This document shows positions 1,468-4,115 of a stretch of 42,396 bases of DNA, piece after piece. The translations under genes and the position numbers were made by a program. Source of the stretch: Oscillospiraceae bacterium (GTDB taxonomy: Bacteria > Bacillota > Clostridia > Oscillospirales > QAMX01); the NCBI GenBank assembly GCA_015067705.1, contig SVLW01000015.1, positions 1-42,396 on the forward strand, read 5' to 3'. Within the stretch, counting starts at the first letter, position 1; every line of letters starts with the position of its first letter. Under the pieces are notes generated by a model. It was given only the letters and a program-made list of their open reading frames with translations. It was not told the origin of the DNA and searched no databases.

Positions 1468-2376
1468 ATGCATGATATCATCGTCGTTGGCGCAGGGCCC
1501 GCGGGTTTGACCGCGGCGCTCTACGCCCGGCGTATGGGTAAGTCCGTCTTGGTGTTGGAGAAATCCACCTTTGGCGGACAAATTACCTTTTCGCCGAAAA
1601 TAGAGAATTACCCCGGCACCATGCAGATGAGCGGCACAGAGTTTGCCGACCGTCTGGTGGAACAGGTGCTTGCACAGGACGCCGAGATCGAGATGGAGAC
1701 TGTTACCGGCATTGAGGATCACGGTGATACGAAAACAGTAGTTACCGAAGAAGGCCGCCATGACTGCCGCAGCGTGATTATTGCCGCAGGCGTGCGTCAC
1801 CGCCAGCTGGGGCTGTCCCGGGAGAATGAGTTCGTGGGCGAAGGCATCTCTTATTGCGCCGTGTGCGACGGCGCGTTCTATAAAGGGCAGCATGTGGCCA
1901 TGGTGGGCGGAGGCAATTCCGCCCTGCAGGAGGCAATTCTCCTGAGCGAGACCTGCTCCAAGGTCACAGTGGTGCAGAATCTTCCCTTCCTTACCGGCGA
2001 GCAGTCTTTACAGGATGTGCTGGCCACCCGCCAGAACGTGGAAGTGATTCTGAGCACGGTGGTGACCGGACTTTTGGGCGATAGCACACTAACCGGTATT
2101 GAGATTCGGAACGAGGAGAGCGGCGAAGTGTCTACGCTTTCTGTGGACGGCGTATTCGTGGCCATCGGCCTGGAGCCTGTGAATGAGGCCTTTGCAGAGA
2201 TCGCGGCGCTGGACGAGCGCGGCTATTTCGACGCAGACGAGGCCTGCACCACCAAGACCCCCGGCGTGTACGTCGCCGGCGACTGCCGCAAGAAAGGCAT
2301 CCGTCAGATCACCACGGCTGTGGCCGATGGTGCAACGGCCGCATTGGCCGCCTGTCGGTATATTGACAGCTTATAA
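1468..2376 (+). CDS. trxB: Thioredoxin reductase (NADPH, FAD)
   Basis: A 302-residue flavoprotein of normal family length. It has the N-terminal FAD-binding VVGAGPAGLTAALYARR, the redox-active CAVC pair (about residues 130-133), the NAD(P)-binding GGGNSALQEA, and the C-terminal FAD motif VYVAGDCR. The family passes electrons from NADPH through FAD to the CxxC of a thioredoxin or glutaredoxin-like partner. AAGGAGAAAG lies just before the ATG, only 14 bases after nrdD, so the two are surely co-transcribed. The CPNC domain at the end of NrdD is the obvious candidate substrate, which is inference. A strong hairpin terminator follows. Codon use is less biased than in nrdD. Confidence 0.96.
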   Translation: MHDIIVVGAGPAGLTAALYARRMGKSVLVLEKSTFGGQITFSPKIENYPGTMQMSGTEFADRLVEQVLAQDAEIEMETVTGIEDHGDTKTVVTEEGRHDCRSVIIAAGVRHRQLGLSRENEFVGEGISYCAVCDGAFYKGQHVAMVGGGNSALQEAILLSETCSKVTVVQNLPFLTGEQSLQDVLATRQNVEVILSTVVTGLLGDSTLTGIEIRNEESGEVSTLSVDGVFVAIGLEPVNEAFAEIAALDERGYFDADEACTTKTPGVYVAGDCRKKGIRQITTAVADGATAALAACRYIDSL

Positions 2377-2381
2377 AAGAG

Positions 2382-2422
2382 AATCCCTCAGAAATCCAAA
2401 CCCGGATTTCTGAGGGATTTTT
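2382..2422. terminator. Rho-independent terminator after trxB, probably bidirectional
   Basis: A perfect 16-base inverted repeat (2382-2397 with 2404-2419) around a six-base loop, followed by a T run on the plus strand. The minus-strand side also ends in CTCTTTT, so it can stop the converging gene at 2427-3014. Confidence 0.9.
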
Positions 2423-2426
2423 CATA

Positions 2427-3014
2427 TTACGATTCATCAGAAAGCTTCACGTGCCGCAAAACAAATTTCAACATATCTTGTAAACAGCCGACTTTCGTTT
2501 CCTCGCCGGGGGTGCAGCGGATGATCGCATCCATCAGCTGATCCGCCAGTTTTTCGGTATATGCGGTAGAAAATCCGACAGTCGCAGATTGTTTCATATC
2601 CCGATAGATTTCCTGATAGAACTCGATCAGCTTCTGATTTGTGCGCTCCCGTGCTTCCACGGCATTGCCGATACCAATGGCAAACGTACCATCTTCCTTG
2701 CGCTTTAATTGATGGAGCGCATCAATTAAGTAGGCATTATCCGCGGCGATGTTCTCAAGCTGTCGTAATATATAAGCCAGATCATACACCGCAGGAGATA
2801 CCGCGTTATGTGTGGTTTCCTCTATGTTCTGATTCATGATCTCTTCTGTCATGGTTTTGTCCTCCAAATATTGATTCGGCGGACACGCAAGGCATATGGT
2901 GGAGTCATCCACATAGCGTGCCCTGCCGTTTTTGACCAGTCCTTTTGCCCGTTTCGGGTAAGTCACGCCAATTTGATTTCCTTGCTCATCCACAACAATC
3001 ACGTTTTTTTCCAT
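2427..3014 (-). CDS. Unknown protein with RRXRR/PLMP-like N-terminus and helical C-terminus
   Basis: A 195-residue protein with no function I can name. Its first 45 residues, with VIVVDEQGN, then PKRAKGLVKNGRARYV and TICLAC, are arranged like the RRXRR (PLMP) segment at the N-terminus of IscB-type proteins: a V/I-rich strand, a basic R-x-K-x-LVK-x-GRAR element, then a T-I-x-L strand. A polar linker follows, then about 120 mostly helical residues. No HNH or RuvC motif is present, so it is not a nuclease of that family. AAGGGGG precedes the ATG, and the gene has its own promoter and terminator. A counted stretch (2701-2880) is 43 % G+C, against about 60 % in neighbouring core genes, which suggests acquisition. 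I recall similar N-termini in other clostridial hypothetical proteins; that is from memory. Confidence 0.75.
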   Translation of the reverse strand: MEKNVIVVDEQGNQIGVTYPKRAKGLVKNGRARYVDDSTICLACPPNQYLEDKTMTEEIMNQNIEETTHNAVSPAVYDLAYILRQLENIAADNAYLIDALHQLKRKEDGTFAIGIGNAVEARERTNQKLIEFYQEIYRDMKQSATVGFSTAYTEKLADQLMDAIIRCTPGEETKVGCLQDMLKFVLRHVKLSDES

Positions 3015-3092
3015 GGGTGTCGCCCCCTTGTTGTGAGATTACGTTACCGGGCGCAGTTTTTTCTGATGGGTGCCGTCCCCTGCCCTGGTTTC

Positions 3093-3122
3093 ATCATAAC
3101 AGAAGTGCGGGAAGATTGTCAA
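3093..3122 (-). promoter_or_regulatory. Sigma-A promoter for the 2427-3014 gene
   Basis: On the minus strand, TTGACA (3117-3122) and TATGAT (3093-3098) are separated by 18 bases. Transcription would start near 3086, giving a leader of about 70 bases. It lies just beyond the tsf terminator, so the gene is an independent unit. Confidence 0.7.
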
Positions 3123-3142
3123 TCAACTTTCCGTTGCAACAA

Positions 3143-3179
3143 CAAAACCCCGGACGTGCATCTGCACATCCGGGGTTTC
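3143..3179 (-). terminator. Terminator after tsf
   Basis: A long G+C-rich hairpin (3144-3160 with 3163-3178, one mismatch) with a very short loop. On the minus strand it is followed by TTTTGTTGTT. It ends the rpsB-tsf transcript. Confidence 0.88.
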
Positions 3180-3197
3180 TCAAACCGAAACGGTTTC

Positions 3198-4115
3198 TTA
3201 CTTGGTGAGCTTTGCGATTTCTTCTGCAAAGTTCTCTTCGCGCTTTGCAAGGCCTTCGCCCTTCTCAAAGCGAACGAAGTTCACGACTTCGATGGAGCCG
3301 CCCAGTTCCTTAGCGACGTTTGCAACGTGCTGAGCAACGGAGATCTTGTTCTCCTTAACAAATGCCTGGTCAACAAGGCAGTTGTCCTGGTAGAACTTCT
3401 TGATGCGGCCTTCGACGATGCGGGCAGCCACGTTCTCGGGCTTGCCTTCGTTGATGGTCTGCTCCATGAGGATCTTCTTCTCGCTGGCAACGGTCTCTGC
3501 CGGAACAGCAGCGGGATTCAGCCACTGGGGATTCATAGCAGCAGCCTGGAGGGCCACGTCATGAGCCAGTTCGGTGAGAGCGGCCTTGTTGTCGATACCT
3601 TCGGTCTTGAGGGTGACGACGACGCCGATCTTGCCGGCCATGTGGATATAGGAATCATTCAGGATGCCCTCGCCGCCGGGAACGGTGACGAAACGGCGAA
3701 CCTGGATGTTTTCACCAATGGTGAGAACCTTGTCCTTACGGGCGTCTTCGACGGTGCCGCCGGTGGGGTATGCGCAAGCAGCCAGAGCCTCGACATCAGC
3801 GGGCTTCTCGGTGTTGGCAACCTTAGCGACGTTCTCGACGAATGCCTGGAACTCGGGGTTCTTTGCAACGAAGTCGGTCTCGGAGTTGACCTCGACCATA
3901 GCTGCATCGCCGTTCTCGGCGACATAAGCATAAACAACACCTTCAGCAGCGATACGGCTGGCCTTCTTAGCGGCAGCAGCAAGACCCTTTTCGCGCAGCA
4001 GCTCAATTGCTCTGTCAAAATCGCCCTCGGAATCAGTGAGAGCCTTCTTGCAGTCCATCATGCCAACGCCGGTCATCTCGCGCAGGCGCATAACATCTTT
4101 AGCGGTGAATGCCAT
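3198..4115 (-). CDS. tsf: Elongation factor Ts
   Basis: A 305-residue EF-Ts, the nucleotide exchange factor that regenerates EF-Tu-GTP during translation. The N-terminal UBA-like domain starts MAFTAKDVMRLREMTGVGMM and contains the hallmark DCKKAL; the core has SETDFVAKN, the EF-Tu contact region. Length and domain order fit the bacterial family. AAGGAGGAACGAAACC precedes the ATG. It follows rpsB by 20 bases, the standard rpsB-tsf operon, and a strong terminator comes after it. Confidence 0.98.
   Translation of the reverse strand: MAFTAKDVMRLREMTGVGMMDCKKALTDSEGDFDRAIELLREKGLAAAAKKASRIAAEGVVYAYVAENGDAAMVEVNSETDFVAKNPEFQAFVENVAKVANTEKPADVEALAACAYPTGGTVEDARKDKVLTIGENIQVRRFVTVPGGEGILNDSYIHMAGKIGVVVTLKTEGIDNKAALTELAHDVALQAAAMNPQWLNPAAVPAETVASEKKILMEQTINEGKPENVAARIVEGRIKKFYQDNCLVDQAFVKENKISVAQHVANVAKELGGSIEVVNFVRFEKGEGLAKREENFAEEIAKLTK

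Follow-up and report, generated by a model that had tools for sequence, protein, structure and literature searches.

A nuclease-free protein with a PLMP-type N-terminal module, tandem RNA elements and probable AUC or AUA start codons

Results

The gene and its setting

The window, by which we mean the whole stretch of 42,396 nucleotides analysed here, carries on its minus strand an ORF of 195 codons that begins with a plain ATG (3012-3014) and sits between two genes recognised by eye as trxB and tsf (Table 1). The ORF that adjoins trxB (26-1453) is presumably, to judge by eye, an anaerobic ribonucleotide reductase with a glutaredoxin-like tail. At 46.6 % G+C, with 42.2 % in its lowest 180-base stretch, the gene is A+T-rich against trxB (58.9 %), tsf (56.1 %) and the window as a whole (58.1 %), as the earlier note on this DNA had remarked. 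That note also described an N-terminal strand followed by a basic element and a T-I-x-L segment, then a helical C-terminus, all without a nuclease, and these claims hold. Residues 4-46 read NVIVVDEQGNQIGVTYPKRAKGLVKNGRARYVDDSTICLACPP, after which come a linker and a C-terminus made of helices. The full AF2 model places helices between residues 79 and 194 and gives the linker (49-73) mostly pLDDT values below 50. Searches of Pfam, NCBIfam, PHROGs and PDB sequences found no RuvC or HNH nuclease domain; the protein is not an IscB/IsrB nuclease. For the whole protein, Pfam, NCBIfam and PHROGs gave no confident family (best E 0.043-0.37), and no sequence relative was found in the PDB.

The 48-residue N-terminal stretch, hereafter the module, is conserved beyond chance: 11 of the 21 family genomes have it, as do 54 of the 345 genomes sampled from the order. 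Promoter-like boxes similar to those of the window gene were also seen by eye upstream of the gene in many relatives. From the position of the boxes, transcription probably starts near 3086, that is, at the first of the RNA elements described below.

Table 1. Features of the locus in window coordinates
Feature	Position	Strand	Basis
Sigma-70-like promoter: TTGACA (3117-3122), 18-base spacer, TATGAT (3093-3098)	3093..3122	-	read from sequence
RNA element 1: stem P1, hairpin P2 GGG(ACGGCA)CCC, A-rich AUCAGAAAAAA on the 3' side, closing stem; core 3056-3080	3047..3087	-	pattern, alignment, covariation
RNA element 2: same core (3003-3027), flanking stem UCACAACAA/UUGUUGUGG	2990..3036	-	pattern, stem test
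Whole gene: PLMP-type module, linker and helical C-terminal domain	2427..3014	-	ORF, translation, AF2
Module with PLMP/RRXRR-like fold, codons 1-47	2874..3014	-	profile-profile comparison, AF2, Foldseek
Stem P3: GGGCACGC (2916-2923) with GCGUGUCC (2881-2888)	2881..2923	-	covariation, folding
Internal Shine-Dalgarno GGAGG, 8 nt before the internal ATG	2861..2865	-	pattern count
Internal in-frame start ATG, codon 55	2850..2852	-	pattern count; same site in L206
C-terminal protein/domain, codons 55-195, helical	2430..2852	-	AF2, profile search
Intrinsic-terminator-like hairpin AATCCCTCAGAAATCC/GGATTTCTGAGGGATT	2382..2419	-	read from sequence; common to trxB on the other strand

Kinship of the module with the PLMP domain of IscB and IsrB

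The earlier note likened the N-terminus to the RRXRR segment of IscB, and profile comparison supports this view. A profile of 23 modules picked from a larger list was aligned by hhalign over 42 columns with a profile of 15 N-domains, out of 20 IscB/IsrB-type domains taken from sampled genomes, at a probability of 96.7 and an E-value of 3.1e-10. Against this alignment's score of 44.5, the highest of 200 column shuffles was 18.4, and the reversed profile scored 11.0. When single modules were submitted to hmmscan with a permissive E limit, 18 of the 23 matched Pfam RRXRR (PF14239; best E 0.0021), the window module doing so with an E-value of 0.027 over residues 5-38 on profile positions 1-34; these single-module scores lie under the curated Pfam cut-off wherever a cut-off is given. 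NCBIfam IscB was matched by 11 of the 23 modules (best E 0.0084), Pfam Diacid_rec by four (best E 0.005) and Pfam IF3_N, weakly, by two (best E 0.06). The hhalign comparison with the IF3 N-domain was likewise weak (22.2, against a shuffle maximum of 21.3). A PDB sequence search with the module profile returned TbaIscB in second place (E 0.022), at the position of its PLMP domain; chain 8fjf, which is unrelated (E 0.0049; three short repeats), came first. In a search of 398 genomes from the phylum, the same profile retrieved four true modules. Its five remaining hits, spread over three genomes, all read by eye as IscB/IsrB-type nucleases, and two of them were also found by PF14239.

As for the structure, AF2 predicts a beta-beta-alpha-beta-beta fold for the module (pLDDT 81.6; strands 5-8, 14-18, 32-36 and 39-42, helix 20-28). 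The comparison with the PLMP domain of IscB envisaged in the earlier note gives the same predicted fold: IscB/IsrB entries make up nine of the ten best Foldseek matches in the PDB (ranks 1-6 and 8-10), with probabilities of 0.98-1.00, TM scores of 0.64-0.75 and E-values of 0.013-0.15, none under 0.001. The nudix hydrolase 3dup occupies ranks 7 and 11, and five IF3 entries follow at ranks 12-16 (probability 0.41-0.72). With VIA-align, nine IscB/IsrB entries lead at Z 5.5-7.8, a range in which (under 8) Z can reflect a common arrangement, and the next row is at 3.9. By eye, strand 2 carries QIGV in the window at the place of the P-L-M-P motif, which is found in none of the 23 aligned modules. 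Profiles and predicted folds together indicate that the module belongs to the PLMP/RRXRR domain superfamily, even though it lacks the PLMP motif. The IscB likeness of the earlier note thus stands, and to that first reading are added here the strand, the non-AUG starts, the internal start, the stem within the coding sequence and the likeness to IF3.

Two RNA elements at the beginning of the gene

The gene is preceded by two copies, the second reaching into it, of a small RNA element whose consensus is a stem around G-GGG-ANGNCA-CCC-AUNANAAAAAA-C. Element 1 lies at the predicted transcription start, in many relatives as well, and only about 70 nt separate that start from the module. Element 2 contains a Shine-Dalgarno-like G-run, overlaps the start codon and ends within the first codons of the module. 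A third copy was seen by eye in four loci (L045, L046, L047 and L056), in three of them also by pattern.

Relatives were compared over 56 loci, a set that excludes two duplicates (L007 and L018), a broken module (L050), a distant one without RNA (L059), a masked locus (L060) and a fragment (L062); counts over this set are not independent because some loci are near-identical pairs. The pattern for element 1 matched in 51 of the 56 loci, the exceptions being L008, L025, L038, L043 and L058. The 46 copies of standard length (45 distinct) were aligned, and the length variants of L002, L016, L037, L039 and L052 were left unaligned. The upstream RNA structure whose survey the earlier note had suggested does exist. 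In the 46 sequences, 77.2 % of the pair cells of element 1 are formed, against 29-42 % when the structure is slid, the former percentage being biased upward because the structure was derived from the same sequences. Both sides of the pair have changed in 103 cells (shuffled mean 45.5). Covariation, which is the stronger measure, yet inflated by relatedness, reaches 0.396, compared with 0.147 +/- 0.017 after shuffling, with none of 500 shuffles as high, and with at most 0.126 when slid. P2 switches from GGG/CCC to GAG/CTC in several lineages, and RNAalifold, unaided, predicts P2 alone and not P1. The flanking stem of element 2, examined over 53 loci, scores 12.92 on average, and none of 500 shuffles exceeds 10.92; it is variable in register and reaches at least 6 bp in 26 of the 53 loci, against at most 23 in shuffles.

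The RNA element accompanies the module in 50 of 54 genomes, usually in two copies; the module genomes G168, G194, G284 and G334 have no core match. Within the family, the core pattern occurs in exactly the 11 genomes that have the module, and within the order the zero-mismatch core occurs in 50 of 345 genomes, every one of them with the module, the reversed pattern matching in two of 345. Eight further genomes have the core at one mismatch only and no module; when the loci of five of these were examined, three showed a match and no module and two returned nothing. The genome of the window holds two cores at up to one mismatch, both at the present locus, and trans targets were rejected, as no further core exists in that genome at this level.

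Nothing in Rfam exceeded its gathering score at positions 2300-3300 of the window, even at permissive E-values, and six loci searched at gathering thresholds gave only a tRNA. The element is therefore new to Rfam as searched in the window and these loci, and no Rfam family of known omega RNA was found at any of them, although an omega RNA of a new kind may be present. By eye, the elements are also unlike the sequences just upstream of the IscB-type genes compared. The thousands of microbiome RNA candidates of PMC8040213 may include the present element.

Probable start codons AUC and AUA

At the start position, the 56 loci have ATC (24), ATG (20), ATA (11) or TTG (one). The start of L055 was set 27 bases further upstream, and the TTG of L041 lies one base out of register. 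The modules preceded by non-AUG codons are under protein-level selection. Substitutions were compared over 50 of the 56 loci (32 non-AUG, 17 ATG and one TTG), pairs with pS of 0.1 or less being dropped, which left 493 of 496 non-AUG pairs; pN was lower than pS in all 493, with mean proportions of 0.581 (synonymous) and 0.167 (non-synonymous), pairs that are not independent of each other. AUC and AUA are likely start codons, because these modules are coding and, at 17 of the 35 non-AUG loci, an upstream in-frame ATG, GTG or TTG is lacking.

By eye and with exceptions, Gly at residue 16 tends to go with an ATG start and Glu with ATC or ATA, a tendency that may reflect lineage only.

A stem within the coding sequence and a probable internal start

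Some synonymous codons of the module are nearly fixed (ACC for T18 in 45 of 50, CGC for R33 in 40 of 42, GCG for A43 in 35 of 37), and these positions lie partly in stem P3. Counted on 43 of the 56 loci (11 were excluded, plus L043 and L055), 97.5 % of the P3 cells are paired, against 95.1 % in shuffles and at most 75.6 % in slid versions, and both sides have changed in seven instances, against 0.8 in shuffles; for both measures, none of 500 shuffles was as high. In L005, P3 is kept through three changed pairs despite differing amino acids. Folding of seven of the 11 excluded loci gave a long hairpin at the place of P3 every time. A candidate attenuator helix, P3' (GCAGGGCA/UGCCUUGC), which came from single-sequence folding, showed no covariation over shuffles and was discarded.

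Shortly after the module, at about codon 55, GGAGG followed by an in-frame ATG or GTG is present in 51 of the 56 loci, at a spacing of 8 in 46 of them and of 5 in the other five. The two other frames gave none, and shuffling gave a mean of 0.21 and a maximum of 2. The site is kept ahead of unlike C-termini. At L206, in genome G017, a C-terminal gene without module and core, behind what by eye is an ABC-transporter-like gene, has this same site (TTGGAGGATAAAACG-GTG) as its only apparent start. This arrangement in nature speaks for use of the internal site as a start. The unpaired probability of the internal Shine-Dalgarno averages 0.42 and falls below 0.3 in only 19 of 45 cases, so that a general burial of this sequence was rejected.

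The C-termini are mostly helical, with a conserved RExTNQ stretch, and at least two unlike domains occur behind the module. The other type, with DWxWxW...NTDYxFxF, belongs by eye mainly to family f26. The two motifs were observed in L045, L047, L048, L053, L054 and L057, with the same module and internal start. A Pfam scan of ten proteins with other C-termini gave nothing over cut-off, and the same holds for the three of this type that were scanned (L045, L048 and L057). Of the 345 genomes, 38 matched a profile of the helical domain, and 37 of these carry the module. Foldseek with the full model returned matches to the module only or weak ones, and the lack of a confident match for the helical part is uninformative. 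The C-terminal domain is perhaps a partner-binding helical bundle.

Discussion

According to PMC9581776 and PMC9640706, the PLMP domains of solved structures touch terminal hairpins of the omega RNA that belongs to them; in OgeuIscB these contacts are mainly independent of sequence (PMC9640706). The nucleic-acid binding proposed for the module in the earlier note would fit this behaviour. The first of these papers links the PLMP domain to IF3 and reports that the terminal hairpin of the IsrB omega RNA contains the Shine-Dalgarno of isrB, its authors suggesting a possible control of expression; a Dali search in the IscB structure paper is reported to have returned nothing significantly related to that domain (PMC9640706). 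By analogy, the present gene probably works like an autogenously controlled leader: it looks self-regulating because it combines an IscB-type domain, copies of a leader RNA, unusual starts in many relatives and a possible second start inside the gene. We lean, with some reserve, towards the view that the module binds the elements of its own mRNA and controls a weak start, and that the C-terminal protein is also made alone. The 47 N-terminal residues would form an autonomous RNA-binding domain of the PLMP type, placed as an in-frame leader before the C-terminal protein. This domain would bind the tandem elements, the second of which contains the Shine-Dalgarno and the start codon, and binding would throttle the module's own initiation at a weak start, often AUC or AUA. 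Since the downstream domain may also be made alone from the internal Shine-Dalgarno and AUG, there would be two products, a long one able to hold RNA and a short one.

Alternatively, the elements might answer to the level of IF3, to a ribosomal component, a metabolite or a trans RNA, with the module serving as a translated leader only and its passage, aided by P3, setting access to the internal start. AUC and AUA are of the kind of codon that IF3 screens, as it does the AUU start of infC, P3 is conserved at the RNA level within the coding part, and the A-rich strand beside a short hairpin recalls small riboswitches. A GTC start repressed by IF3 is described for sigR (PMC5472188). However, the module is conserved as a protein, with pN below pS in every counted non-AUG pair, its predicted fold is that of an RNA-contacting domain, and the zero-mismatch core never occurs without the module in the 345 genomes. 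We thus regard control by another signal as rather unlikely, and prefer binding by the module itself.

A selfish or mobile single-gene unit, patchy in distribution, found at unrelated sites and equipped with its own promoter and terminator, was also considered. The module is present in only 54 of 345 genomes, the trxB-tsf gap is empty in two congeners, and neighbour genes vary between loci, to judge from 20 scanned proteins of the 24 flanking ones picked. In addition, two unannotated human fecal records filed as phage each carry the module, the RNA core and the internal Shine-Dalgarno. Against mobility, no transposase was found among the scanned flanking proteins, several of which have no Pfam match at all; the module also adjoins tsf in another genus (G003); and the empty gaps are equally explained by loss. 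The module is absent from 72,556 plasmid records, and IMG/VR gave six pattern matches, none of them a relative, and no match to the RNA core. A plasmid or phage gene was rejected on these grounds, the two fecal records notwithstanding, and a mobile unit appears improbable to us.

It is no more plausible that AUN is not a start and that reading of the module begins at canonical codons further upstream, or that the module is made only within a longer product. Eighteen of the 35 non-AUG loci do have an in-frame ATG, GTG or TTG upstream, which in 13 of these is an ATG 9 bases away; however, the other 17 have none, AUN stands at the usual spacing, where 20 loci have ATG, and the ATG at -9 abuts the G-run, too near for a usual Shine-Dalgarno. 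Lastly, a convergent likeness to IscB, to which one might be led by a short and basic module, single-sequence Pfam scores under cut-off, Foldseek E-values not under 0.001 and VIA-align Z under 8, is rejected as very improbable in view of the profile-profile score and its shuffle controls, the same register, the Foldseek matches with the same predicted fold, and the fact that the sole other matches of the module profile in 398 genomes are IscB-type proteins.

The module thus resembles the PLMP domain of IscB and IsrB in its predicted fold, its 42-column profile alignment and its N-terminal position, and the gene resembles isrB in having an RNA structure with a Shine-Dalgarno directly upstream of the start (for IsrB, PMC9581776). 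In contrast with both nucleases, it has no RuvC, no HNH and no PLMP motif (that of IscB contacts RuvC and the omega RNA), two small tandem elements take the place of a known omega RNA, none of which was found, and a weak AUN start at 35 of 56 loci goes with an internal second start. As for IF3, the predicted fold is similar to that of its N-domain (PF05198), and the 35 AUN start codons are of the class it screens, but the sequence link is weak, as noted above, and there is no IF3 C-domain. Control by a non-AUG start would be shared with infC. Leaders of ribosomal-protein genes are similar in that a structured leader precedes and accompanies the protein; here, by contrast, no housekeeping function is known, there are two start sites, and the coding sequence partly takes in the second element and P3.

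We did not find a free-standing PLMP protein in the literature on PLMP/RRXRR, IscB autoregulation, non-AUG starts and candidate structured RNAs. It is possible, though we would not put it at even, that PLMP domains exist outside RNA-guided nucleases as a family of protein and leader RNA, in which an IF3-N-like fold binds its own tandem Shine-Dalgarno elements and governs initiation at AUC or AUA, with a second product from an internal start. If so, the grip of IscB on the terminal hairpin of its omega RNA would either have given rise to this regulator or itself descend from the same self-binding leader, and a route by which a nuclease gained an RNA would come into view. The origin of the PLMP domain and that of the OMEGA protein-RNA pairing could both be tested in a small system, given a PLMP protein that has no nuclease but comes with a cis RNA. 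A bacterial family in which AUC or AUA would be the commonest start (35 of 56 loci) also matters for annotation, as gene callers limited to ATG, GTG and TTG would miss such genes or trim them to the internal start.

Some loci depart from the common pattern. One module lies outside the order (L178, genome G470). It has two RNA elements, and in the second of them a compensated change has turned P2 into GAG/CTC. The distant module at L059:1538-1933 has a plain ATG, no RNA elements and another C-terminus, and matches RRXRR with an E-value of 0.041. Finally, L043 (genome G143) is degenerate: a single RNA element is left, as though the stretch from one tandem copy to the other had dropped out, and its module goes out of frame near codon 38.
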